Virus record (IMG/VR): IMGVR_UViG_3300008459_000477
Span: 1 to 21,748 of that record
DNA from: a virus
DNA length: 21,748 bases
Direction: 5' to 3' (one strand)
Under the pieces are notes generated by a model. It searched no databases. It was given only the letters and a program-made list of their open reading frames with translations, and had not been told where the DNA came from. The position numbers and the translations under genes were made by a program. Shown here in pieces: positions 5,079 to 21,457 of the stretch. Each line of letters opens with the position of its first letter. Position 1 is the stretch's first letter.

Positions 5079-8054
5079 TTAGTTATTACAATTTATATCT
5101 ATATCTACACCAATATTAAGGTAGAAAGTTTTATTGGTAAAATCATCATAACAAGTCGTATTACTTACCACTAAATTGTTACCCGCCAAATAATAATTTA
5201 AACCAAAACTATATAAAGTATCTAATTCGGTTTCAATTGCGTTTAATATTTCCGTAGTTGTTGGAGCGTCGTCACCATATCCTGTAAAAAATGAATTTTG
5301 TATTAAAATATTATCGTCAAGTCTACAATCAATAAACCAAGTACTTATAACACTAGTTAAATCACATTGTGTCTGCGTATACCCACTACTTAAAATTAGA
5401 TTATTAATTGATTGATTTAAAACTTCAGCAGGAAATAAAGGGTTACTTAAATTAGATATTGAACATGTTAAGGTTTGATCAATACAATCATAAGTAAAGA
5501 TTTGACCATTATATGTACAAGGAATACAGTCAACGGGAATAAAAGTACAACCTCTCTGTCTTCTCCAAACAACTTTTTGTCTATGGAAAATTGAATTATC
5601 CATTTTTTGGCCGGTCATCCATATTGTTGTTGCCGGTACTACTTGTTCAACAAGTCTTTGCCAATAATCACCAATACCTAATGTAAAATCTATCATTTTT
5701 TGATATGTAAAATTATTAGATGGTATTCCCACAGTTTCATTTGATTGTAGGTATCTCCAAAAAATAGATTGTAATGTTGGGTATCCACTAGTTTTACCGT
5801 CAGATATTGTCCATCTATTTCTTACATTTATAAAATTATTATAAAAATTTTGAGCAAATTCAAAAAATGTTTTTTCTTTTGGTTTTGGATTAATATGAGT
5901 CCAATCAATATTTCCTGGTGATGGATATGGTGCGGTTAGTCCGGAGTTTGGTATTGGATAATCATACTTAACGGACATGTCCCATATATCATATGTAATA
6001 CCTTGTCCCATATTTAAATATAATTCTATCATTTTAGTGTTTAATACTAAATCATCATTTTCAGTAATATAATTAACACCATTAAAACTATTATTATTTT
6101 TTCTTTCTTCTGTATTAATATCCCAAGACTTTTGATTGTCTATTGTTTTAGTAATTTCAAAACCAAACCCTCCCATGTATGGAAAATTTCTATACCTTTC
6201 TAAATAGTCTTGACCATAAGTAAAAGGTTTTAAGTATGAAATTAAAAAAGGGTTGTTACCTATAAGTGAAGAATTTTGTAAATCAGGTAATTCTATTGAT
6301 CTATGTTCAGGGGTTTGTTCAAACCAACCACTACCTATCTGAAAATAGTAATCATCATTATCATTTGGTGAAAGTGGTAATCCATCTGAATTTGTTGGGT
6401 AATCTGTTCTTGACACTGGAGTTAATTGTATTACTCCTGATGTTGTAAAACCCGTATATTTGTTACCTAAAAGACTGTAGACCAATGTAGGATCAAGTGC
6501 CGGTTGTTCATTGTAAAAAGTACCACCAGATAAATTAGCAAACTTAGTATCAAAAGTATCTAAATTAATTTTAGAGTCCGCTAAATACACTATTTCATTA
6601 AACTCTATTAAAGCGTCAGGAGCCCCTATCATTCTCATTAAAAACTCAACAGATCTTCTAGTACCCTTAGATTTAAACAAGTACGCCGTGTTTAATATTA
6701 AATTTCTATAGTATTGATAATTTAATTCATTAGGTGTGTTTGGTTTTTTTTGTCCGTCAAAAATTTGTTTTGAGTTTGGTGCTAATACGCTATCTAAAAA
6801 ATTTTCATTAGTAATGGGAGATATGTTAGTATTTAAACCTAAAGTTTGTGCCAAATTAACCAATAATTGTGATGGTATGTCATTACCAACGACATAATTA
6901 ACTGAATTCATATTAGCCAATGCATCTATAAATTTTTTAACTTCATCAAAACTTCTACCATAGATTTGTAATATTTTTTCAACTTTTTGGTCCGCAGTAT
7001 CGAATTCTTTAAACGAACCCGTAATTAAAAATCTACTAATAAGATTAGTTTTATAATTATCGAGTGATTCAGCAACTTTTTGTAATTTTGTAAGATATTC
7101 GTCAAACTTTGTAGAACTAATATCTAAATTCCAATAGGTGTCTAATCTCCAAGTTAGTCTTTGATTATACATATTGTAATTACCGTTACTATCGTAATCA
7201 GGATATTTAAAATTTGTTGTGTAAAGCGGAGTGGTTTTTCTATTCAGTAAAAAATCTTCTATTTCATCAAAGTCTTCATTAAACACCGTCTCAGTTGTTA
7301 TATTATTTGGTTTTAAAATTAAACTAATATAAGTTTCAGTTATTAAATTATTTTTTAAATTAAAAGGGTCTCCTTGTACTGTTATAGTTACAGTACCCCC
7401 TGTTGTAAATTTTGTTGGGATAAACTCTAACACCGGATACTCAGTGTTTAAATCTACAAAATATAATGAATAACTTTCAAAGTTATCTGTTAAGTTTCTA
7501 TATTTTGAAACGGCTAAAGGTCTTGTTTCTAAATTTCTTCTTGCATTTTCTGAAAAGTCGATACCAAAAGGGTTACTAAAGGTATATACATCAGATTCAA
7601 ATGTTGTTTCATTATTTATAACATCAAAAGTAATGTTATATGCGGTTGGGTAACTATCTAAACCAAAATTAACAGGATTATTTATTTCTATTGCCGCAGG
7701 AAAATAATTAATTATTTTAGTTATTGATGATGAAAATCTTTTTTGTAATGATCCGTATAATGAAAAACTAGTTACTTGTGATATATCAAAATTAGGGTAA
7801 ACTTTAAAATTTTTTTCTATTATTTTTTTTGTTTGCTCAATATTTTCAATATTTAAATTTTCTAAAGTATATGGTTCCGAAAATAACCCAGTATCGAATT
7901 TTCGATTTACCTTTTCATAAATAGCAGATGTAAACTCAAAATTTCCTTGAGTTAATCCTCCCCCAGTCACTAATTGCAACCCTACAATGTTATCTGAAAA
8001 AGTTTCAGAACCTACAGACGGTGCTGGTGGATAAAAATATTTTTTTCTAGCCAT
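5079..8054 (-). CDS. Large baseplate protein with a central tail protein I (P2 gpI)-like region
   Basis: A 991-residue protein starting at an ATG that shares its A with the previous gene's TAA stop (TAATG). The central part carries the pattern I associate with P2 gpI, the baseplate component that works beside gpJ: a LLVNLAQTLGL helix (about 395-405), then an YYRNLILNTAYLFKSKGTRR stretch leading into SVEFLMRMIGAPDALIEF (about 445-485). P2 gpI has an equivalent 'LL.WLA' helix and a 'R..I......H.KGT..A......LG' stretch. A later region (WQRLVEQVVPATTIWMTGQK, about 800-820) ends in a basic VVWRRQRGC segment. The last 160 residues are Cys-rich (C..IDCIPC-like clusters) and appear to be a separate domain. 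Typical I proteins are near 200 residues, so this would be a much enlarged version. The fibre gene follows directly, as H follows I in P2. The family call is from remembered motifs, not a search. Confidence 0.55.
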   Translation of the reverse strand: MARKKYFYPPAPSVGSETFSDNIVGLQLVTGGGLTQGNFEFTSAIYEKVNRKFDTGLFSEPYTLENLNIENIEQTKKIIEKNFKVYPNFDISQVTSFSLYGSLQKRFSSSITKIINYFPAAIEINNPVNFGLDSYPTAYNITFDVINNETTFESDVYTFSNPFGIDFSENARRNLETRPLAVSKYRNLTDNFESYSLYFVDLNTEYPVLEFIPTKFTTGGTVTITVQGDPFNLKNNLITETYISLILKPNNITTETVFNEDFDEIEDFLLNRKTTPLYTTNFKYPDYDSNGNYNMYNQRLTWRLDTYWNLDISSTKFDEYLTKLQKVAESLDNYKTNLISRFLITGSFKEFDTADQKVEKILQIYGRSFDEVKKFIDALANMNSVNYVVGNDIPSQLLVNLAQTLGLNTNISPITNENFLDSVLAPNSKQIFDGQKKPNTPNELNYQYYRNLILNTAYLFKSKGTRRSVEFLMRMIGAPDALIEFNEIVYLADSKINLDTFDTKFANLSGGTFYNEQPALDPTLVYSLLGNKYTGFTTSGVIQLTPVSRTDYPTNSDGLPLSPNDNDDYYFQIGSGWFEQTPEHRSIELPDLQNSSLIGNNPFLISYLKPFTYGQDYLERYRNFPYMGGFGFEITKTIDNQKSWDINTEERKNNNSFNGVNYITENDDLVLNTKMIELYLNMGQGITYDIWDMSVKYDYPIPNSGLTAPYPSPGNIDWTHINPKPKEKTFFEFAQNFYNNFINVRNRWTISDGKTSGYPTLQSIFWRYLQSNETVGIPSNNFTYQKMIDFTLGIGDYWQRLVEQVVPATTIWMTGQKMDNSIFHRQKVVWRRQRGCTFIPVDCIPCTYNGQIFTYDCIDQTLTCSISNLSNPLFPAEVLNQSINNLILSSGYTQTQCDLTSVISTWFIDCRLDDNILIQNSFFTGYGDDAPTTTEILNAIETELDTLYSFGLNYYLAGNNLVVSNTTCYDDFTNKTFYLNIGVDIDINCNN

Positions 8055-8962
8055 TAACTTATAATATTTATGAAGTTTTTACTAAAATCAATATTACCAC
8101 CTCTATCTTGTCTAACCTCATAAAGAAGTTCATTGAAGTTGTCTCTGATTTCAAATAAGTTATATTGTTTGTATATATTACCGGCACTATCATAAAGTGT
8201 GTAAATACCATCTTCAATACTTTTAGTTTGATTACCGTAAAGAGCAATTGCAATTGTGTCTAAATCATGTTCGGCCATTTGTATGTCAATGGTCAACGGA
8301 TTAAAAAATGTATTTGTTATAATTATATTTTGGTTTGGTTGTCCGATATATGGTGTTGCGGTCGGTTTATTTGTCGGCGCAGTTGATGGTGATAGTGTAC
8401 AAAAAATTAAGTCGCTCCCTCCGTCAACATATCTATATCTTATACTTTTTTGATTACTGTTTGTTTGGTCTGTAACTACGGGTTCACAAAAAAATGATGA
8501 AGTGATTAATCTATAAAAATTTTGTATTTTACTTCCGTCAGTATTTAAATATTCAACTCTATACCCTACAAGACCTTGGTTGGTAAATTTATTTCGGTAT
8601 AGCTGGGGCACATTATTAATATCTATTATAATACCCTTCACATTAGGTAATGCGGATAAGACTCCACAATCTGAAATTACTGTTCTTACTTCCGCGGGTC
8701 TAATATATAAAGTATAAACACCTATTTTATTAAATTCACTTGCCGGTAATTTTAAATTATAAAGTCCGCCCAATATTTCAACACCATCATTTCCACCAGT
8801 ATCCGTATTATTAAAATAAGGGGTTAATATTGTTCTTGAATTTAATTTTTTAAGTATAAAATTATTAGTTGCGTCTCTTGATTCTGTATAATGTAATATT
8901 ATATCAACATCTTCCGGAGAAACGTCTGCGGGTCTTACTGTTCCATATGTACCTAAAGCCAT
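8054..8962 (-). CDS. Structural protein of unknown family, 302 residues
   Basis: I do not recognise a family. The product begins MALGTYGTVRPADVSPEDVD and is a soluble beta-rich sequence. Residues about 105-150 (ALPNVKGIIIDINNVPQLY, then VGYRVEYLN) look like paired strands. A Thr/Pro/Ser-rich hinge (STAPTNKPTATP, about 190-205) separates this from a C-terminal part with DGIYTLYDSAGNIYKQYN and FNELLYEVRQDRGGNIDF. There is no signal peptide or membrane helix. It lies between the PKD-containing 361-residue gene and the I-like 991-residue gene, with which it shares a TAATG junction, so translational coupling to the baseplate protein is likely. Its leader is one of the six carrying TATTTAT followed by an A-rich stretch. 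From its place I infer a baseplate component or fibre adaptor. Confidence 0.7.
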   Translation of the reverse strand: MALGTYGTVRPADVSPEDVDIILHYTESRDATNNFILKKLNSRTILTPYFNNTDTGGNDGVEILGGLYNLKLPASEFNKIGVYTLYIRPAEVRTVISDCGVLSALPNVKGIIIDINNVPQLYRNKFTNQGLVGYRVEYLNTDGSKIQNFYRLITSSFFCEPVVTDQTNSNQKSIRYRYVDGGSDLIFCTLSPSTAPTNKPTATPYIGQPNQNIIITNTFFNPLTIDIQMAEHDLDTIAIALYGNQTKSIEDGIYTLYDSAGNIYKQYNLFEIRDNFNELLYEVRQDRGGNIDFSKNFINIIS

Positions 8963-8995
8963 TTTTTTATTTTATAAATAGTTTATCCATCTTTT

Positions 8996-10081
8996 TTATG
9001 TTTTATTAATTTTGAAATATCCATAACCATAGGTAGTTAAATCTCCTGTATTATCAACTTCCCCTAATCTTTGTAGCGATTCAAATACAGAATATTTACC
9101 TCTTTCAATAAAAACATCTGATTGTATTTCTGGGTCCATAACAAAATCTAATAAATATTCATTTTTTGTTATCGCCGAAGAAACTATCATATCATTAGTA
9201 ATACCAGATGTACTAACAACATAAAAAGTTTTTCCATTAGGTAAATCAATATAATTAATATTATTTATAGTATATGCGGTATAGTCAGGTGATATAGAAT
9301 CTATTTGACCATAAAAATTATTATTTTTAAAAAATTGATACCCTATTGAAAATTTAGTACTTCCATACCTTTTTAATTCATTAAGTTTTGAATTAGTAAA
9401 TCCTGAGATGTTAAATGGTACGTTAACAAAATTATCTGAGGTTTGTGCCGAAACTTGATTATTATTATCCCCTTGAAATATTGTGTCTAAAACAGTTGTT
9501 GATGATGGCCAATTTCCTCCTATTGGTGTATAAGTAATGGTTCCGTTTGGGTTATTAACTGTTACTCCACTTAATGGTATGGAAATTTTCTTTTGTATTA
9601 CAGTTAAACCAAAAGTATTGAAACCTGAAAAACTAATAACAAATTCACCATTATATGAATATGTGTGATTTTTTGTTTTACTTACTGATTCTACAGGAGT
9701 ACCATCCCCCCAATCAACAAAATGGTTAGAAATTTTTAAAAAACTCTTTTTTTCATTCTCAGAAGTATTATAAAGTCTGACTTGATATAAATTATTTTGA
9801 TTATATGCTGATAATATAAAATTAGTGATGACATCTTTTTGTGTTATTAGACCATCAAAAACATTATACACACCAACATCATTATATGTTTGGGTTAGTA
9901 AAATAGGTATTGTAAGTCCGGTCAGTAAAGATGTCCCTCCTGTACCACCACTTAAAATATATGTCATACCTGTGTAAGATCCAAATAGATTAACATTGGT
10001 TTCTCCACTAAATGATTTAGTAAGTACATCACCTTTAAGAACTTCAGGTGAAATTCTATAATATATTTTTTTTTCAATCAT
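8996..10081 (-). CDS. Baseplate-associated protein with a PKD-like domain, 361 residues
   Basis: The start ATG at 10081 overlaps the previous stop by four bases (ATGA). Around residues 110-165 a PKD-like domain is visible: VDWGDGTPVE, then KNHTYSYNGEFVISFSG. The WGDGT turn and HTY...G...I pattern are the usual PKD hallmarks. The N-terminal third is rich in Gly and Thr (ILSGGTGGTSLLTGL). The C-terminus has a striking segment, SDVFIERGKYSVFESLQRLG followed by EVDNTGDLTTYGYGYFKI, with a conserved-looking 'F.ERG..S.FE...RL.EV' core; I cannot tie it to a named family. PKD domains in virions usually serve adhesion or act as beta-sandwich spacers, and another occurs in the fibre downstream. Likely a peripheral baseplate or fibre-attachment protein. 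There is no secretion signal. Confidence 0.7.
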   Translation of the reverse strand: MIEKKIYYRISPEVLKGDVLTKSFSGETNVNLFGSYTGMTYILSGGTGGTSLLTGLTIPILLTQTYNDVGVYNVFDGLITQKDVITNFILSAYNQNNLYQVRLYNTSENEKKSFLKISNHFVDWGDGTPVESVSKTKNHTYSYNGEFVISFSGFNTFGLTVIQKKISIPLSGVTVNNPNGTITYTPIGGNWPSSTTVLDTIFQGDNNNQVSAQTSDNFVNVPFNISGFTNSKLNELKRYGSTKFSIGYQFFKNNNFYGQIDSISPDYTAYTINNINYIDLPNGKTFYVVSTSGITNDMIVSSAITKNEYLLDFVMDPEIQSDVFIERGKYSVFESLQRLGEVDNTGDLTTYGYGYFKINKT

Positions 10082-10929
10082 ATTGGATTAACGTATTCGT
10101 ACCATTTTATTGGGTTTGTTGTCCCCTCACCCACTCTTAAAGGTATTAAAACTTGTTGGGTTATTTGTTGTTCTAAAAAAACCTTATAATCAAAATTATC
10201 ATAATCCATGACCACCTTATAATAAAAATATAACTCTTTATTAAAATCGTAAACGTCGGGTCCCGTAAAATCACTTTGTGGTTTGTTCATCATTCTAACA
10301 AATTGTCCTGTTTTTGCATTAAAAAATTTACAACTCATGTACATCTCATTTTGAGAAATATATGATTGATTTTTTAACCAATATAAGAAAAATCCTTCTT
10401 TATCTGATCCAATATAATCTAAAATCATATATGGTTTTTTAACCTGTACTTGTAAATTTGGGTTGTTAAATAATATTCCAGGTTCTTTAATTCCTTGTTG
10501 TGTTGGTAAAATAACAGTAAAAAGAATTTTTTGATTTTCGCTACCTTTTTTATCGTAAAAATCCATTTTAAAAAAACTTTTTTTAAATGAATTCGCAAAA
10601 TAGTAAATTTCTTCATCTAAAAACCCCGCATACTGGTAGTCATCTAACCACTGATTTTGTTGTGGTGGGTTAATTAAAAAATCTGTTTGTCCTTGAAAAT
10701 TAAAAAAATTAAATTGGTAATTTATTTCGCTTTTATTAACGTCGTTGTCCCAATTAGAATGAGAAAATCTTGTGACTTCAAAATCAGTTATTCTGTTTGT
10801 TGCTTGTTTTTTTATTTCTTCCTGTATTACATCAACCCCTTCATCTCTACCAACCATATCAAATTTTATTTCCACAGGGATATTAATAAATTTATCATTT
10901 CCGTTATATGTTATCCTATAATTACTCAC
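10078..10929 (-). CDS. Structural protein of unknown family, 283 residues (GTG start)
   Basis: The frame begins with GTG at 10929, inside the end of the 579-residue gene (8-base overlap, GTGAGTAA). The nearest in-frame ATG is about 24 codons later, so GTG is the better start given the overlap, which points to coupled translation. The product is soluble, rich in aromatic and charged residues (YQFNFFNFQGQTDF, EEIYYFANSFKKSFFKMDFY, GFFLYWLKNQSY) and contains no Cys-rich or repeat region. I do not recognise a family. By position between the 579- and 361-residue genes, with overlaps on both sides, it is most likely part of the same baseplate subassembly; fixed stoichiometry with its neighbours would fit the coupling. 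It could be a distant gp8- or gp53-like wedge component, but nothing in the sequence proves that. Confidence 0.7.
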   Translation of the reverse strand: MSNYRITYNGNDKFINIPVEIKFDMVGRDEGVDVIQEEIKKQATNRITDFEVTRFSHSNWDNDVNKSEINYQFNFFNFQGQTDFLINPPQQNQWLDDYQYAGFLDEEIYYFANSFKKSFFKMDFYDKKGSENQKILFTVILPTQQGIKEPGILFNNPNLQVQVKKPYMILDYIGSDKEGFFLYWLKNQSYISQNEMYMSCKFFNAKTGQFVRMMNKPQSDFTGPDVYDFNKELYFYYKVVMDYDNFDYKVFLEQQITQQVLIPLRVGEGTTNPIKWYEYVNPI

Positions 10930-12668: not shown

Positions 12669-15600
12669 TTATTCAATATATTTTGTTATAAATTTATTAA
12701 TTGCGGTTTTACCTTTATATAAACCAAAATAAAAATGAAATGGTGCTCCAACAACAAAACTGTCTCCTGTTTCTATAGTACCTGTCCAATTGGCATCATT
12801 GTTACCATTTACATCTGAATTAAATATATATCCTTTTTGACCTGTTGGTGTTGTATTAAAATACCTGGATGTTGGTGCGTATTGGAAACTCATTGATTGG
12901 TATTTGTTAGAATAAAAAGCATTGTTTGCTGTAATTACATTTGTATACCATTCATTATTATCGGTACCAAAAATGGTTTGTTGCCCCGCTGTTGGGTTTG
13001 AAGTCCAAAGATACATAGGGACTTCTTGTGTTTTTGTATAACCAAAATAATTTAGTAATGGTGGGGTCAATGAAAACGTTTGTACTCCAGGTGTTAAAAT
13101 GTTTCTACTTACAGTATCTGAAGAAAAGAAAATACCCATTAAACTTTCAAAATTACCACCCTGAACGTATAAATCATTATCATCATATTCTTCATCACCA
13201 AAAGGTATAACTCCGAATTCCGAATTAATACTAAACATTTGAGTAATATCCCCATCTAATCTGTCTCCACTTCTAGAAAAAAATCTGTTAACAGATTTAT
13301 CCCCCAATCCTAAAACTTGTAACCAATAATTTTTATTAACAAATCTTGAAAGTATCGCCAATTGTAATATATCTCCTTGATCATTATATGTTGTACTTTT
13401 TAAACCATTCATTAGATAACCTTCAAAATTAGGGTTAGAACAAATTTCTTTCGTATATAAATCTCTTGGTCCTAAATCCATAATTGTGGTTGGGAAAAAT
13501 AGGTTTCTATCGTTGTTAGCACCAAATGGTACACCAACATACCCACCAAATCCAAATGGTTGATACTCAGGTACTTGACCTACGAATTTATCAGTATTCC
13601 CATTATAAGGTGCGGATCTATAAAATAATGAGTTAGTAGTTCCTTCAGTATAAAAAATGGTACCTTGTCCTTCTCTAAATATGGTATCGACAGTACCGCA
13701 AAATTTATATTTTTTTGGTTGTCCTTGAACGTTAAAAATTGTTTGTTTTTTAAATGAAAACATATAAAGAGACCCGTTTAACCAATTATTTTGAAAAACT
13801 TGTGAGAAAACTCCTCTACATGCTGCGTATGTTACTCTAAATCTAGATCTCCATTCTCTAAAGTACCTAATGTCATTAGGTATTGAAATTATCAATGGTT
13901 TATCAACAAAAAAATAACATCCCCCGTCAACTCTAGCATCAGTACTTTGACCCAATGTGTTATCTATGGTGTCAAAACATGGTGTTTCAACTCCAAAGTT
14001 GTTTCCACTTCCAGAATAACACGTAATAGGTACCATTCCCTCACATGTTAATGTATTAATAATAGCATCTGTATATGCGTTACTTGTATCACCTGTTAAA
14101 TCTTGTGCGTTGTTTGTTGTGTCTGTGGCCTCTAAAAGAATAGATGGAATTATAGTCGTTCCACCATCAGGACCAATTAAATACATTGAAAACCTATCAT
14201 TTAAATGTAAACTGAAGGATGTGTTTCCTGAAACCTCGGTAGTGTCTGATGTAGGTAATCTATCACTTCTTAGAATTAATCTTTCATGGTCACTAATTGT
14301 TACGTCATTTATAAAGTCTATGTGATAGGCTGGTGAAAAAACTCTATCATTTCTTAATAATGGGTCATTTGGCATATATGTGTTTTGTATCGCTTCACCC
14401 GCCAACAAAGTCCCTCCTTCTATATTACCTTGTGGTGTAGTTGTACAAGTAGATATTGTTTGTTGGCCAACCCATGACCCTGAACATACTTGATAATCTA
14501 AAACTACTCCGTTTGAGTCTACTTCAATTGCTACTGTATATTGCCAAGTCAAATTACCACTTTGATCTAAACTTTGGTATGACATTGACCACCATCTATA
14601 CCCACCAAAACTTCTCAACTGACCTTGTAGTGGTGTTGTAAGTGCCGAATCAGTATATATTATATCACCTACTTGTAAATTAGGTGTTGCTTTATAGTAA
14701 GGCACAAATGTTGCGTAGTTTTCACAAGCACCAACGTTACCATTTGAACATGGTGATGAGAATGCTCCATAACAACTATTATTATTAGGTATATAACTAG
14801 CCAAATATGCAGTGGCATCATTATTATTTGCGAAATCATAAGGAGATGTAATCCCAAACCACTCATAAAAAGGTTGTGTTGTTGGTGCAGTGACCACCGC
14901 TTGTCCATACTGAAACCCTATTGTGCTTTTACCTAATTCAGACCCATTACACGCTATGTCACTATAAACACCAACAGGTAAGGTAAATTGTGATAAAGTG
15001 GAAACGTCATCAGAATATGCTTTACTATTAGCTCTAGACTTATCTGTAGAGTTGTAATATTTTACAACATTATTGGTAAATGAACTAAATGCGTTTTGGT
15101 CAGGAGTAAAAGAAAAAGACTTATGAAATAATGAAACATTTAAATTATCCGTAACTTGATGGCTTTCAGGTGTTTTATAATCATTTCTCCATGTTGAGTT
15201 ATTCAACAAATTATCAATATTTTTTTGTATTGGGATATTAAGGTAATAATCCCCCTCAATTTGAGGTCCCGTGCCAAAATTAAATCCGAATAATTTAGAT
15301 AAGTCATAATTAATTTTTTGTTTTTGGGTGTACGGATCAACTCCTCTAACTAAAAATAAAATTTCTAATGCTTGGTGGTCTAAATATTCTTTTATTGATG
15401 TAACGGTATCACATTGTTGACCTCCAGGTCCCGTTATTTCATTATAACAAAATCTTTGTGTTTTGTTGAAAATATATTTATTTAGAAGAGAATCGGGTGA
15501 ACCTAAATTAGTACTTCCCGTATAATTAAAAATGCTATCACCCGTTATGACTTGAAAATATTCATTTCCAGCAACAAACTTATACTCATCACCATTTGTG

Positions 15601-18041
15601 GTCAAATTTAGTTTTACATTAGCAGTGACCTCAGTACCGTTAATATCAACATATTTAACTTGTTTTGTTACTAAATTTTGTAGATTATAATCTGTTGATC
15701 CTGTTATCCTTCTAGTGTTAAATTGATTAATCGTTCCTCCAGTAATATTTGGGTCATTTATTTTAGTTACGTCATGAAAAGATAATAAACTACCTACAGG
15801 TATGTTAGATATAGTACCTTGATCACAAACAATAACCATGATTGAATCATAAAATGGGTCAGAAATCTCAACAGTATTTGTTGTTGGGTTTGTGTTTTTT
15901 ATGGTGGTTTTTATTATGTTAACATTTTCAAAATATCTTTCTCTAAAATTTGCCATGTTTAATGATTGAGATAACGTAACGTCATAACCTAAGTATTTAA
16001 ACCCACCACCTTGTCTTGGCACTTCCGCAATTGGTAATTTTGATAATTTAGGATCTAAATCGATGAACCCTGTGGCATCTATTGATGATACAAATTGGTA
16101 TCCTGCAATTGTTTGTCTTAATCCGTTATTTACATTTTGGTCATCTCCAATAGAAAACCCATATGATATTACAGAGTTAGTATTAGCTAATGGACTAACA
16201 TTACTATTACTTATTTGAATTAATGACTCTTCAGTAGTACTTTGACCTGCATCCAAATCAACTTCAGTGCATGGGCACGCCTCACAATCGGGATACGATA
16301 ACATAGGTAATGAAATTCTTTTAAAAGGATTTTCTTTTGATAGTGGTTCTATTGGTGGTTTTGTACAGAATTTTGAAAGCCCTTTAAATGGTTTCCATCC
16401 GGCTATTTCTAAGTTAGATATAGAACATAAAGTATCATATATTAAATTTATAAATGATATTATAAAATTAATCAAAAGTCTAATTATTGGATAAATAAGT
16501 GCCAAAACATGTAAAATTGTAATTATTGTTGGGACTAATAAAGAAACTATTGTAATTAAAAACATCATTAAGAAAAATATTAAATCAAAATTTCTAACTC
16601 CGTCGTTTACAGGTAATTTATTAATTTGATTGCATGAGTTACTATCTATTTCTTTTATACCCAAATGTCTTGATCTATTATACCCCCATTTAAATCTATC
16701 AATAAAATTAGCGATAGTATAAACTTTATTAAAATTAAATTCATAAAAGTAATCTTCACAATTTATAGCCGCCTGTGGATCGGCATATTCATTCCAATCT
16801 AAACTAAATGCGTATGATTTTAATTGTAAATTAGTATCGACATCTTCATATTTTCCTGTATTTGTCCATCCATATTCCCTTATATTTGGAACTAAATAAT
16901 CCGCCCTTTCTATTACGTTATTTTCAGGGTTTTCATTTTGGTATTGTATTCTAAATCTATACTTTCCTTTTGTTGGTATTCCTATCGATGGATCGTTAGA
17001 TATTACTTGTTCTCCAAATTCATTAGTTGTAACGTAATCAAGATTCATTGGTACCTCAACTAACCATGTGCCGTCTTCATCTATAACTTTACCACCATTA
17101 GGTAAACTATGTTGTTCTAAAACAGGTTGTCCATTTATGTCGTTTTTTATAGTTTGTCTTATAGATAAAATTTTTCCTGGACCTGTTTCTAAATTACAAA
17201 AATTACCAGTGTTTTTTTTAGGTTTACAGTTAGTCCTTAAAAAATCCTCATCAGATGTGGAAAATATTGAACCCATAAAAATTGCTTGGGGTTTAATTTC
17301 AACACCAACATCTCTTAAATCAAAATCAGTTCTAGTTATACCTATATTACATAAATCTTCTTCACCCCAAAAAGCAGTGACATCGATATCTTTATTAAAA
17401 CTTACTATTTGTGGTAAAGAATCCAAATCGGATGATGATTTAAATCCTTCCCCATTGAATTGTTCGGGGGTACCTAACCCTACTCTGACTAAGTCAGACG
17501 GTTTTAATGAAAAACAACCCATATCTGATAAATCCAAGTCCATAACTATTGTTTGGACCCCTAATGGTACCCCTATTATCATAAAATCACCACTATCGTT
17601 TGTTTTAGCAGTAAACTTGTAGTATTTTTCATATACTTCTAAAACTTCAGTTCTTGTTAAAACATCTTCTTTTGTTGGAAAAGTTCCTGTTGGTGTATGT
17701 CCTCCATATGTCTGTTTATATGGTAATAAATTATACCTATATCCGTCTTCATTTTTATCTGAAGGTTTTTTATATGGGTATAGTGTTGAAATTACCGGAT
17801 CGTTTTCGTCTATTTGATCTAAAGGAATAAAGATTGATACGTTAGCGTTAGGCACACCGTAACCACCATTTACTATTACCCTACCCGCAACTACACCATA
17901 ATCTGCGCAAAATCTATTATAAACGTCACTTTGTCTTAATTTTAAAGATAAAATTTCTAAAAAATCAAAATCTTGGTTTATGTTTATTCTAATGTTTCTA
18001 TCAACACCTACTTTGGTTCTTAACCTATAGCTTTTTGACAT
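12669..18041 (-). CDS. Giant baseplate/tail protein (1790 residues) with carboxypeptidase-regulatory-like fold and internal hydrophobic segment
   Basis: The largest gene in the window. Residues about 50-185 look like a carboxypeptidase-regulatory (Ig-like) domain split by an insert: GVVAGRVIVNGGYGVPNANV leads in, and TNDSGDFMIIGVPLGVQTIV, the 'T...G.F.I..VPLG' half, follows near 146-165. At about 485-545 lies a run of roughly 55 almost purely hydrophobic residues (for example LIFFLMMFLITIVSLLVP and LLINFIISFINLIY), enough for two or three membrane helices. A Cys/Pro-rich stretch with CEACPC follows (near 590). The remaining 1200 residues are soluble, Asn/Thr/Tyr-rich and without clear repeats; one dense segment reads WRSRFRVTYAACRGVFSQVF (about 1395). 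It follows the gp6-like gene, where T4 has gp7, so a wedge role is plausible, but I see no direct gp7 resemblance. No N-terminal signal. The leader contains TATTTAT. Confidence 0.7.
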   Translation of the reverse strand: MSKSYRLRTKVGVDRNIRININQDFDFLEILSLKLRQSDVYNRFCADYGVVAGRVIVNGGYGVPNANVSIFIPLDQIDENDPVISTLYPYKKPSDKNEDGYRYNLLPYKQTYGGHTPTGTFPTKEDVLTRTEVLEVYEKYYKFTAKTNDSGDFMIIGVPLGVQTIVMDLDLSDMGCFSLKPSDLVRVGLGTPEQFNGEGFKSSSDLDSLPQIVSFNKDIDVTAFWGEEDLCNIGITRTDFDLRDVGVEIKPQAIFMGSIFSTSDEDFLRTNCKPKKNTGNFCNLETGPGKILSIRQTIKNDINGQPVLEQHSLPNGGKVIDEDGTWLVEVPMNLDYVTTNEFGEQVISNDPSIGIPTKGKYRFRIQYQNENPENNVIERADYLVPNIREYGWTNTGKYEDVDTNLQLKSYAFSLDWNEYADPQAAINCEDYFYEFNFNKVYTIANFIDRFKWGYNRSRHLGIKEIDSNSCNQINKLPVNDGVRNFDLIFFLMMFLITIVSLLVPTIITILHVLALIYPIIRLLINFIISFINLIYDTLCSISNLEIAGWKPFKGLSKFCTKPPIEPLSKENPFKRISLPMLSYPDCEACPCTEVDLDAGQSTTEESLIQISNSNVSPLANTNSVISYGFSIGDDQNVNNGLRQTIAGYQFVSSIDATGFIDLDPKLSKLPIAEVPRQGGGFKYLGYDVTLSQSLNMANFRERYFENVNIIKTTIKNTNPTTNTVEISDPFYDSIMVIVCDQGTISNIPVGSLLSFHDVTKINDPNITGGTINQFNTRRITGSTDYNLQNLVTKQVKYVDINGTEVTANVKLNLTTNGDEYKFVAGNEYFQVITGDSIFNYTGSTNLGSPDSLLNKYIFNKTQRFCYNEITGPGGQQCDTVTSIKEYLDHQALEILFLVRGVDPYTQKQKINYDLSKLFGFNFGTGPQIEGDYYLNIPIQKNIDNLLNNSTWRNDYKTPESHQVTDNLNVSLFHKSFSFTPDQNAFSSFTNNVVKYYNSTDKSRANSKAYSDDVSTLSQFTLPVGVYSDIACNGSELGKSTIGFQYGQAVVTAPTTQPFYEWFGITSPYDFANNNDATAYLASYIPNNNSCYGAFSSPCSNGNVGACENYATFVPYYKATPNLQVGDIIYTDSALTTPLQGQLRSFGGYRWWSMSYQSLDQSGNLTWQYTVAIEVDSNGVVLDYQVCSGSWVGQQTISTCTTTPQGNIEGGTLLAGEAIQNTYMPNDPLLRNDRVFSPAYHIDFINDVTISDHERLILRSDRLPTSDTTEVSGNTSFSLHLNDRFSMYLIGPDGGTTIIPSILLEATDTTNNAQDLTGDTSNAYTDAIINTLTCEGMVPITCYSGSGNNFGVETPCFDTIDNTLGQSTDARVDGGCYFFVDKPLIISIPNDIRYFREWRSRFRVTYAACRGVFSQVFQNNWLNGSLYMFSFKKQTIFNVQGQPKKYKFCGTVDTIFREGQGTIFYTEGTTNSLFYRSAPYNGNTDKFVGQVPEYQPFGFGGYVGVPFGANNDRNLFFPTTIMDLGPRDLYTKEICSNPNFEGYLMNGLKSTTYNDQGDILQLAILSRFVNKNYWLQVLGLGDKSVNRFFSRSGDRLDGDITQMFSINSEFGVIPFGDEEYDDNDLYVQGGNFESLMGIFFSSDTVSRNILTPGVQTFSLTPPLLNYFGYTKTQEVPMYLWTSNPTAGQQTIFGTDNNEWYTNVITANNAFYSNKYQSMSFQYAPTSRYFNTTPTGQKGYIFNSDVNGNNDANWTGTIETGDSFVVGAPFHFYFGLYKGKTAINKFITKYIE

Positions 18042-18113: not shown

Positions 18114-19952
18114 TTATGAAAAGTCTACGGTTTTAAGATTTTTTACTCTAACTTTAATGTCTTTTTTATCGTATCTAATTTGATATACTTGGTCTGGTTC
18201 GGCGAATATCGTATCATCAATAAGTTCAATTTGTTTTGTTTCGTTATCGACATACCTTTGGGATGTTTGAGATGACGAATATTGTCCTCCAACTTTATTA
18301 TATACTTTTATATCTGTTAATGCAACAACACCTGCAGTGTTTTGTACTAATCTTCTAATATCAGATATATTAACATTTTGACCTAATTCTCTATTTTTTG
18401 GATCCATATTGGTAGATATTTGATCAATGATTTGTGTAACCACTTGTCCTTGATTTTGATTTGACTCAAAAACAACAAAAAGTTCAAATTCTAAATCAAT
18501 TACTTTAGCCACATCAATAGAGATATAGTCATTTATCATCCTATACTTAGAAAGATATGTTGCTAAATTACTTTTTAAATTATTTGAAACCACCTGTGTT
18601 AATTTTCCACCTGTGTCATAAGATAGTATTTGTATATTTATTTTGTTATTTTTTTCAGTTATGGATACTTTAGCAGGTGCACCAAATCTACCAGGCATTG
18701 TATCAATAATTGATTTGTAATCATTTATTGTGACCGCTCTTTTTTGGGCCGAAAAATTAAAGGACACCATATTTCTTACCTCTTCAATTGAAGGTGGATT
18801 AGCCCCTCCTATTGCGGCAGTAATATTTGTACAAGATAATGATTGCACAACGTTTCTATTTATAGAATCTGAAGGTCCGTTAACGGCAAAGTCAATTGTG
18901 CCTACCTGAGTTATTGTATTAACACCAACATTTGTTGATAAACCTCCACCAACCCTATATTGTACAAAAACGGTAGTATTTGGTCTTACGGTTAAACCTA
19001 ACCCAATGTTATTCTGATAGTTATTAATGTCCAAAGGTACTCCTGTATTTGTAAATTGTTTTAATTGTTCGTCAGGTGTTGTTGACCCACCACCAAACTG
19101 TATTTTCATAAAACCTTCAGGTGTGTACTCGGTTATAAATCTTTGTTCTGTTTTAATGTATTTACCAACTTTTACACCAGCAACATCGACAGGTTTTGTT
19201 GGGTCTTCGACAAAGATTGTATTTTCGACTAAAGAATCGACTTCATACCATTTATTATTTGAAGTTAAAAACTCAGTAAACGATGGAACTCCAGGGTATG
19301 ATGTTCCATCTTTCTGTATTATTGATGTAACCCCTAAAACATTTCTTTCCGGTAAAAATATACTAAAAAAGGGAGTTGAATCTACGGGATTTACAATTTT
19401 TTTAAATACTTTTGTAAATCCATTTACAACAACCTCTCTTTTAGTTATAACGTAATTGACAATTTTATTATTAGAATCAAACGTTGGGATTTTTGTTCTA
19501 TTAACAAACCCTTCTTGATTATACTGTGTTGAAAAGTCAATATCGTAAACTGTCTCAAATGTTGTGCCTCCTCCGTTAAATTGTGATCCTGCCCTTAGAA
19601 TGCCTAAGTACCTTATATCCTCAGAATCCCCAAGTGGTGGTACGGTAATTGAAAAATCAACTAAAGCAACTGATGGCCTATATCCTGGTATTTTTAATCC
19701 ATATGTTCTTGCAATATTATAAATTGAAGACCTTTGTTGTGCATACTGTAAAACGGTTTCTTGGATACTTCTATCAATGTGAAAATGTAAATTATCAGCA
19801 ACTGCAGCATTTAAATCCATTAAAACAGAATAAACTGAAGCATCATTAAAATTTTGTATTAATTCAGGGTAATACTGTTTAGTGTAATTTATTAAATCTT
19901 GTCTTAACCCCTCAAAATCCCTTTCGGTATAATTTATTTTATTATTTGCCAT
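18114..19952 (-). CDS. Baseplate wedge protein, gp6 / baseplate J-like
   Basis: A 612-residue protein. Its N-terminus, with NYTERDFEGLRQDLINY followed by DASVYSVLMDLNAAVADNLH and a stretch ending IYNIARTYGLKIPGY (1-90), is the typical opening of T4 gp6/P2 gpJ proteins: an acidic 'Y...DF..L..DL' helix, then a helix binding the neighbouring wedge subunits. The middle has IEEVRNMVSFNFSAQKRAVT and DYKSIIDTMPGRFGAPAKV (about 385-425), matching the family pattern of a 'R..A.T..DY' helix before the C-terminal domains. A later INIS.IRRLVQNTAGVVAL strand region precedes a C-terminus ending VKNLKTVDFS. T4 gp6 is about 660 residues, so the length fits. gp6 forms the dodecameric ring with gp7 and gp53 that holds the baseplate together. 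It starts two bases after the gp25-like stop, an order shared with P2 W-J. Confidence 0.85.
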   Translation of the reverse strand: MANNKINYTERDFEGLRQDLINYTKQYYPELIQNFNDASVYSVLMDLNAAVADNLHFHIDRSIQETVLQYAQQRSSIYNIARTYGLKIPGYRPSVALVDFSITVPPLGDSEDIRYLGILRAGSQFNGGGTTFETVYDIDFSTQYNQEGFVNRTKIPTFDSNNKIVNYVITKREVVVNGFTKVFKKIVNPVDSTPFFSIFLPERNVLGVTSIIQKDGTSYPGVPSFTEFLTSNNKWYEVDSLVENTIFVEDPTKPVDVAGVKVGKYIKTEQRFITEYTPEGFMKIQFGGGSTTPDEQLKQFTNTGVPLDINNYQNNIGLGLTVRPNTTVFVQYRVGGGLSTNVGVNTITQVGTIDFAVNGPSDSINRNVVQSLSCTNITAAIGGANPPSIEEVRNMVSFNFSAQKRAVTINDYKSIIDTMPGRFGAPAKVSITEKNNKINIQILSYDTGGKLTQVVSNNLKSNLATYLSKYRMINDYISIDVAKVIDLEFELFVVFESNQNQGQVVTQIIDQISTNMDPKNRELGQNVNISDIRRLVQNTAGVVALTDIKVYNKVGGQYSSSQTSQRYVDNETKQIELIDDTIFAEPDQVYQIRYDKKDIKVRVKNLKTVDFS

Positions 19953-19954
19953 TT

Positions 19955-20419
19955 TTAAATATTAATTATAACAAACTCTCTACTTCCAAAAGCCTTAGCC
20001 TCGTCTGTATAGTCTATTTTTATTTTTGCAGTATATTCACCTGTATTTTGACCAGGTATTTTATAAATACTTGCTTGACCTAATAATTCATAATTTAAAT
20101 CACCTGGGGATTCTTCACTCTCTAAATATGGTTCAATAGTGATACTATTAATAGTTAAGTTAGGTATATATTTTGCAACTTGTTCTTCAATATCTGATCT
20201 AATACTTTCAAACGTTTCACCGTCTAATGGTTCAAAAATAAATTCATAAATTCTAGTACCAAAATCAGGTAAATAATATCTAGTACCCTTTCTAGTTAAA
20301 ATTAAATGTAATAGATTACTTCTAATTTCATCGGCAGTTTCTTCAGTTAATGAAAAATAATAACCTTTTTCACTATTTCTAAAAGGAAATGTTATACCAT
20401 AAGTAGTTCCGTTAGCCAT
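19955..20419 (-). CDS. Baseplate wedge protein, gp25 / gpW lysozyme-like family
   Basis: A 154-residue protein with the gp25/gpW pattern: TEETADEIRSNLLHLILTRK, GTRYYLPDFGTRIYEFIFEP, then a helix ESIRSDIEEQVAKYIPNLTI (about 25-105). The 'I...L..IL.T..G.R...P.FG......F.P' signature is diagnostic of the family. gp25 sits at the baseplate and nucleates sheath polymerisation; despite the historical lysozyme label it is generally structural. T4 gp25 is about 130 residues, so this is full length with a short C-terminal extension (YTAKIKIDYTDEAKAFGSRE). It is the first gene after an intrinsic terminator and its leader carries CTATATTTAT, so it may open the main late operon. The gp6-like gene follows at once, as in other contractile tails. 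Confidence 0.9.
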   Translation of the reverse strand: MANGTTYGITFPFRNSEKGYYFSLTEETADEIRSNLLHLILTRKGTRYYLPDFGTRIYEFIFEPLDGETFESIRSDIEEQVAKYIPNLTINSITIEPYLESEESPGDLNYELLGQASIYKIPGQNTGEYTAKIKIDYTDEAKAFGSREFVIINI

Positions 20420-20515: not shown

Positions 20516-21457
20516 TTATTCAAATTCTATATTCAAATCCCCAACACTTCTACAATCAACTAAAGATGGGGCCTTACCACTTCTTTCAAAAGCCTTTTTA
20601 ATTGTTGCACATGCTTGAATAAATTTAGCTCTGTCAGTAATTTTATTATTTATAATATCGGCAACTCCAATTCTGCGAATACTTTCAAGTTGGTCATTTA
20701 AATCTTGAACGTCTGAATATGTTTTTAACATACTTACACCTTTAGATATTGATTCTTGGTCTGGTTCGGTATAATATTCTGTTGTTGTACCAGGATCAAG
20801 TAAACCCCATAAGTTACTAAAACTTTCAGGATTATTTACAGTTTTAGACTTTGTTACGTCAGGTGAGTTTATTTTAGAACTAGCAACATTGAGAGCCTTT
20901 TTGTCAAGTCCCATAGTTGTTATTGGAAAAAGTTCTAATTTACCAAATCTTTCACTATCATCGGGATTAACTTTTGTCGCATCATAAAAACTATAGTCAA
21001 ATTTTGTTGGTTTATATTCTCCAGAAACAAAATTTAATATTTGTTTTATTTTATCTTCTCTAACCCCTATTTGTGTAAAAGCTTCGGTTAAAATACTTTT
21101 TAAAACGTTTTCTCTTGCGGTTGCTACCGCAGCATTTTGTTTAGGTGTTCCTGTATGACTTGTTCCAACAGTTATTTTTGCCATAATAGGTAAAGGATAT
21201 TTACTATCAATAAATGTCTTTATAGTTCCCATTGATGGTCTCATTACTTTAACGATTGCGTCAACTAATTTTTTTCTAGTGTCTTTATTTATTGAATATT
21301 TACCTTCGTCAAATGCAAATCTAATATAATAACTGTTGTTAGTTCTAACCGGCTCAGGTTCCATTGTTTTTTCTGTCAAATATTTTTTTTGAATGTTTGA
21401 TTTATGCATATTTAAAATATGCATTTTTTCAGATTCAGTAATTAATAATTTTTTCAT
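20516..21457 (-). CDS. OmpA-like-fold protein with candidate capsid-targeting N-terminus, 313 residues
   Basis: Residues about 43-148 resemble the OmpA C-terminal peptidoglycan-binding fold: YYIRFAFDEGKYSINKDTRK, KLVDAIVKVM, KITVGTSHTGTPKQN, AAVATARENVLKSIL, then GV..DKI....... SGEYKP. The conserved N108 and R115 of the 'N..L...RA..V' helix are present, but the Asp of the usual 'GHTD..G' loop seems replaced (GTSHTG), so classical diaminopimelate binding may be lost. There is no signal peptide or lipobox. The first 29 residues (MKKLLITESEKMHILNMHKS, then NIQKKYLTE) form a likely amphipathic helix ending in L-T-E. That recalls T4 capsid-targeting peptides cut by the prohead protease after (L/I)-X-E. 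The C-terminal half (about 150-313) is unrecognised. The gene has its own leader motif and its own terminator, so it is expressed apart from the baseplate operon. The fold call is moderate; the processing idea is a hypothesis. Confidence 0.6.
   Translation of the reverse strand: MKKLLITESEKMHILNMHKSNIQKKYLTEKTMEPEPVRTNNSYYIRFAFDEGKYSINKDTRKKLVDAIVKVMRPSMGTIKTFIDSKYPLPIMAKITVGTSHTGTPKQNAAVATARENVLKSILTEAFTQIGVREDKIKQILNFVSGEYKPTKFDYSFYDATKVNPDDSERFGKLELFPITTMGLDKKALNVASSKINSPDVTKSKTVNNPESFSNLWGLLDPGTTTEYYTEPDQESISKGVSMLKTYSDVQDLNDQLESIRRIGVADIINNKITDRAKFIQACATIKKAFERSGKAPSLVDCRSVGDLNIEFE

Follow-up and report, generated by a model that had tools for sequence, protein, structure and literature searches.

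How contractile phages such as T4 bring their DNA across the inner membrane of the host without periplasmic loss is still an open question, and to our knowledge, no baseplate wedge protein has so far been shown to enter lipid. Hydrophobic helices have been given membrane roles in other tail-like machines. Phage T5 pb2 carries a 46-residue hydrophobic segment with a proposed role in anchoring or DNA passage, and pb2 and pb3 serve as precedents (PMC10038345). For roseophage R4C, such helices of the megatron and the tape measure protein were proposed for use, with those of the megatron suggested to pierce the outer membrane (PMC10276861). In the thylakoid contractile injection system, a transmembrane helix of Cis13 anchors the system in the membrane (PMC8894136). 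Among T4 baseplate proteins, gp7 (AF158101 gene 7; 7061-10159 in our locus L159) is annotated in GenBank with "C-terminus is predicted integral membrane domain", and a membrane helix is predicted at its residues 879-900 (dG -0.22). This annotation contradicts the assumption of a preliminary description of the present DNA that wedge proteins do not normally carry membrane helices. The gp7 sequence belongs to solved baseplate structures. Because gp7 scores as a membrane helix and yet its sequence is part of a solved baseplate, a hydrophobic segment is by itself no proof of a membrane role.

The DNA analyzed here (hereafter the window, 21,748 nucleotides) is the 21.7-kb IMG/VR virus record IMGVR_UViG_3300008459_000477, in which the following genes are relevant:

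19955..20419, minus strand: gp25-like baseplate wedge protein (Pfam GPW_gp25, E 9.2e-11)
18114..19952, minus strand: gp6-like baseplate wedge / Baseplate_J protein (PHROG 219, E 8.5e-22; family HMM against T4 gp6, E 2.9e-7)
12669..18041, minus strand: giant baseplate-cluster protein, 1790 aa (ORF, family search and relatives)
5079..8054, minus strand: 991-aa protein, distant homologue of immuto and Mel-JY01 baseplate-cluster proteins, without a predicted membrane helix
1650-5069, minus strand: 1139-aa protein with SprB and PKD repeats

Along the minus strand, the gp25-like, gp6-like and giant genes are followed by genes for proteins of 579, 283, 361, 302 and 991 aa and then by that for the 1139-aa protein. 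As with gp7 of T4, the giant gene is located directly downstream of gp6 (order gp25-gp6-giant), and its product is large and has a predicted membrane segment, whereas the gp7 segment is single and near the C-terminus. Comparison of the giant with the single T4 gp7 sequence by hhalign gave a probability of 0.4%, and when T4 baseplate and neck proteins were subjected to profile-sequence comparison, the gp6 family alone was matched. T5 pb2* is a siphophage tape measure protein within the tail tube, whereas the giant is encoded among T4-like wedge genes, has a largely beta structure predicted apart from its segment, and had no homology to pb2* in family searches. The megatron of R4C and RcGTA carries its helices N-terminally and serves as the hub in siphovirus-like tails; in contrast, the giant has its segment internally, at residue 487, and belongs to a T4-like group with a contractile sheath gene. 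Cis13 is a tail-fibre-like protein of a cellular system with a C-terminal helix.

The giant had been described as part of a phage baseplate cluster, and this setting was borne out: gp25, gp6/Baseplate_J and the same downstream genes recur in the relatives of the window, with a gp6 homologue in 156 and a gp25 homologue in 145 of the 158 loci collected in the first searches (some loci overlap on one contig). A 192-kb syntenic relative (G001) encodes a T4-type portal protein, gp20 (PF07230, E 2.4e-80), and a T4-type major capsid protein, gp23 (PF07068, E 2.3e-64), another relative (G022) encodes the capsid protein (PF07068, E 1.4e-62), and a sheath gene is present in larger contigs with the window-type giant gene. 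On the basis of the portal, capsid and sheath genes on larger giant-bearing contigs, the host phages of the family are assigned to a T4-superfamily group. A Terminase_6C search of 20 records gave no match, although PHROG does show a terminase in G001. SprB and PKD repeats such as those of the 1139-aa protein are of a kind found in Bacteroidota surface adhesins and hint at a Bacteroidota host for the window phage.

The giant family is common in viral contigs, a single collection yielding at least 574 confirmed loci, and tblastn with three different members as queries against 50,697 phage records found no homologue. One family member in BFVD, A0A8S5LA66 (Myoviridae sp. ctPuP5; Foldseek E 1.5e-19, 40% identity over 396 columns), is an uncharacterised metagenome-derived record. 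A scan of a genome collection returned only two giant loci, one on a contig from a Prochlorococcus single cell and one on a contig from a Wolfebacteria MAG; both contigs are likely viral. Locus L078 (also L254), an 83,794-bp record of a second clade that is both QCKH01000004.1 and IMGVR_UViG_2716884754_000002, is binned in AG-409-L21, a single-cell genome of Prochlorococcus, which possibly links this family, so far lacking isolates, to a host. Judged by gp6, Flavobacterium phage immuto and Microcystis phage Mel-JY01 are the closest cultured phages (28-29%); their baseplate clusters contain no detectable giant relative, and the larger genes of these clusters have no predicted membrane segment. 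Their large cluster proteins (1265-1404 aa) are homologues of the 991-aa neighbour, not of the giant. Because the cultured clusters lack the giant and their large proteins match the 991-aa gene, the giant seems to have been added only in the uncultivated group, in the position right after gp6.

Three regions were distinguished in the giant protein outside its hydrophobic segment:

17298..17912, minus strand: N-terminal transthyretin-like / carboxypeptidase-regulatory-like domain, residues 44-248 (VIA-align, Pfam)
13842..16244, minus strand: variable "arm", residues 600-1400 (gone in compact relatives; DUF5122 insert in some)
12669..13844, minus strand: conserved C-terminal region, residues 1400-1790 (conservation profile; sequences of L079 and L177)

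Residues 44-248 gave VIA-align Z scores of about 8-10 against many transthyretin/carboxypeptidase-regulatory-like domains, and the Pfam family CarboxypepD_reg matched 15 of 44 family members, weakly (best E 0.0017). This was all that was obtained when every member was scanned against PHROGs and Pfam; no Pfam, PHROG or PDB family could be assigned from sequence, and a PDB sequence-profile search returned nothing credible. The N-terminus (MSKSYRLRTKV...) was judged by inspection to have no signal peptide, in agreement with the preliminary description. AlphaFold models of two halves of the protein were poor (mean pLDDT 52 and 57) and, at low confidence, consisted mostly of strand or loop beyond the hydrophobic segment; Foldseek with these halves recovered the N-domain fold and the one BFVD family member, with no other match. 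In the compact relatives L079 and L177, the C-terminal region is fused straight onto the N-domain. In one sub-lineage (L103, L108, L114, L116, L138 and L096), a DUF5122 beta-propeller of about 400 aa is inserted in the arm at about window residues 870-893 (E 2.5e-35 in L108). Tolerance of this 400-aa insert suggests that the arm is exposed, and the propeller is suggested to be a swappable surface module. In L075, the giant gene is broken into two ORFs (354 and 1303 aa; 5695 and 6702), which may be due to a frameshift or faulty assembly or may be a genuine split of the gene.

These features bear on whether the giant belongs to the virion at all. It could instead be a membrane-bound assembly or host-interaction factor that is merely encoded within the baseplate operon, as would suit its lack of homology to any virion protein family and its absence from the nearest cultured relatives. 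We regard this reading as improbable, because in the relatives of the window the giant is flanked by gp6 on one side and by further conserved baseplate-cluster genes on the other, and because its length of 1400-2100 residues, its transthyretin-like domain and the beta-propeller of some members are typical of virion surface proteins.

Between the N-domain and the arm lie the hydrophobic segment and its framing cysteines:

16632..16634, minus strand: Cys470, first of four framing cysteines (relatives compared)
16404..16583, minus strand: conserved hydrophobic helical segment, residues 487-546 (hydropathy, insertion predictor, conservation, periodicity, AlphaFold)
16269..16286, minus strand: CEACPC motif, residues 586-591 (C586, C589, C591), closing the hydrophobic excursion (position)

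The hydrophobic run noticed earlier is real, although it lies about 16 bases from the 16420-16600 first given for it, and although the run, called nearly continuous, is strongly hydrophobic but interrupted by the charged residues R521, D536 and E545. Its best 19-residue Kyte-Doolittle mean is 2.68, compared with at most 1.61 elsewhere in the protein. A run arising by chance was ruled out: the 19-residue score was reached by 48 of 10,000 residue shuffles, and none of the 10,000 matched the means over 33 residues (2.52) or 58 residues (2.04). The CEACPC motif was found after the segment, as described. Cys470 is present in all relatives compared but L078, and C586, C589 and C591 are nearly universal. 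L078 lost all four framing cysteines and kept the hydrophobic segment; L079 lost both the segment and CxxCxC, yet has a Cys in column 470.

A re-implemented Hessa-type insertion predictor, for which bacteriorhodopsin helix A (-0.8) and glycophorin A (-1.37) were the only test cases, so that its values are approximate, identified two segments in the window protein, 487-509 (dG -2.64) and 513-535 (+0.13). A mid-chain segment with a dG of -2.6 is of the kind recognised by the co-translational insertion machinery. During infection, such a segment might tether the freshly synthesised protein to the inner membrane of the cell, where baseplate assembly would begin, and thus act in the producer instead of the next host, much as Cis13 is a baseplate component that a transmembrane helix holds in the membrane of its own producer (PMC8894136). 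This seems rather unlikely to us: baseplates must leave with the virion, so release from the membrane would be needed, and no means for it is visible in the sequence.

The segment was kept in 217 of 219 distinct relatives (ORFs; the set includes the distant second clade, L078 type), and in a first set, all but one of 124 relatives had a strong hydrophobic segment. The segment is thus conserved across the family rather than peculiar to a single sequence, and a functional reading is justified. The insertion predictor found it in 210 of the 219 ORFs, starting 32-84 residues past the N-domain wherever it was scored. Four of the nine misses have an obvious segment just past the cut-off (Kyte-Doolittle 2.25-2.32), and three had the domain end wrongly assigned: L096 and L108, in which the segment was seen in the first set, and L070, which apparently duplicates L076. 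The last two are the compact relatives L079 (2870-5113, 747 aa) and L177 (from 7992), in which about residue 440-450 is followed directly by the C-terminal region. Homologues with a non-hydrophobic segment, proposed earlier as evidence against a membrane role, were looked for, and only these two turned up, which miss the whole region.

Identity to the window averages 15% in residues 521-560, compared with 62-83% in blocks of residues 1-480 and 70-80% in the N-terminal domain; with the segment kept at an identity of only about 15%, its hydrophobic character is preserved while the letters change. In each of 102 distinct sequences checked, the longest uncharged run of the segment spanned 28-63 residues, and the insertion dG, -2.6 in the window, reaches -3.6 in relatives. 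Two types were recognised. The short type, to which the window belongs, has about 60 hydrophobic residues with a Cys near 539 and another near 554-559 (two Cys in 50 of 56 sequences) and two predicted membrane helices. The long type has about 100 nearly uncharged, Ala/Gly-rich hydrophobic residues with several prolines, mostly no extra Cys (42 of 46), and three predicted membrane helices. Ala/Gly richness is also seen in polytopic membrane proteins. The earlier term "multi-helix" is uncertain: other members look like three membrane helices, while in the window protein, AlphaFold draws one helix of 62 residues (481-542; pLDDT 70-76). If all predicted helices spanned the membrane, two versus three of them would place the arm on opposite sides in the short and long types; this topology argument was tried, and it does not settle the membrane question.

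Polar or small residues recur about every 3.5 residues along the segment: N493 (in most relatives), T500, H511, Y517/P518, R521, N525, N532, Y536 and C539. N493, H511, A514, P518 and R/K521 are kept in most sequences; at 493 the window carries Met. Column hydropathy of the short type had a period of 3.56 residues over 487-546, and none of 5,000 shuffles was as strong; in the second clade, the period was 3.53 over about 40 residues (P<0.001). The periodicity tests were picked after the pattern had been seen in the first clade, and the second clade serves as a replicate. Sequence-entropy periodicity along the segment gave nothing significant.

Such regularity could also be expected of a very hydrophobic core helix of a soluble assembly, buried in the baseplate body or at an oligomer axis, which never meets lipid; its polar stripe would lie in an interface, and its hydrophobic sides would be covered by protein. 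A period of 3.5-3.6 with coherent phase over 60 residues, and over 40 in the second clade, suits a long packed helix, as does the continuous helix drawn by AlphaFold, and T4 gp7 has a solved structure despite its predicted membrane segment. One uninterrupted helix of 40-60 residues exceeds a single bilayer pass, which counts against a membrane reading. However, the model has a mean pLDDT of 52 overall and, like that of the other half, is too poor to place the segment, and the roughly 100 nearly uncharged, proline-containing residues of the long type are unlike a single core helix. A buried core helix is a serious alternative, if a less probable one, and ranks second.

Neighbouring proteins were used as controls. 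A predicted segment was found in 1 of 491 members of seven neighbouring families, a borderline gp25 member. In the block of G001 from sheath to tail fibre, the giant was the only strong candidate among ORFs of at least 250 aa besides a 535-aa non-tail protein. The candidate tape measure protein of G001, which follows the sheath gene and was picked by position and composition only, with no family match, has no hydrophobic segment, and neither do its eight homologues. Members of the giant family gave no significant match to PHROG tape-measure families, one weak match of a single member (E 0.68) aside.

Taken together, these data suggest that part of the tail machinery enters or sits in a membrane. 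Of the four readings, we tentatively judge most likely that the giant is a baseplate-associated virion protein with a membrane-active helix that is inserted at infection. Conservation, long uncharged runs, dG, the polar stripe, and the segment-free neighbours and tape measure protein argue for this; against it, two compact relatives manage without the segment, and the nearest cultured relatives have no such protein in their baseplate cluster. The giant would be a structural component of the contractile-tail baseplate in a large uncultivated T4-superfamily group, with its conserved N- and C-terminal parts probably forming a body that docks beside gp6 and residues 600-1400 acting as an exposed, variable arm. 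At the neck where the arm leaves the body, the chain would make an excursion via the hydrophobic helical segment of 40 to 100 residues, framed by four cysteines. In the free virion, the segment may be packed away, and upon baseplate opening or sheath contraction, it may be inserted into the host envelope with its polar stripe toward neighbouring helices or a lumen. There, it could anchor the baseplate or help form a DNA passage, as proposed for T5 pb2 and the R4C megatron. A more specific version, in which a baseplate-operon protein instead of the tape measure protein bears the membrane-inserting element, and several copies around the baseplate drive striped helices into the envelope on contraction to build a ring-shaped pore or anchor, appears unlikely at present; if true, it would represent a route undescribed for contractile phages, in a widespread, uncultivated, T4-like lineage.

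A conserved membrane-like element in a baseplate-operon protein is a concrete candidate in an abundant aquatic phage group, and the analysis defines a large protein family, of at least 574 loci, for which no cultured or functionally annotated member was found.

In L078, of the second clade, the gp6 and giant genes are separated by a gene (L078:9579-9992) for a hydrophobic protein of 137 aa that contains Cys (MGCDTC...). The protein encoded in the window at 20516-21457 (minus strand) and those of several ORFs of G001, for example, 9376-10212, start with a short motif that is similar among them (such as MKKLLITESEKMHILNMH or DISKEEKQRILEMH), and this shared motif is possibly an N-terminal sorting or cargo tag.
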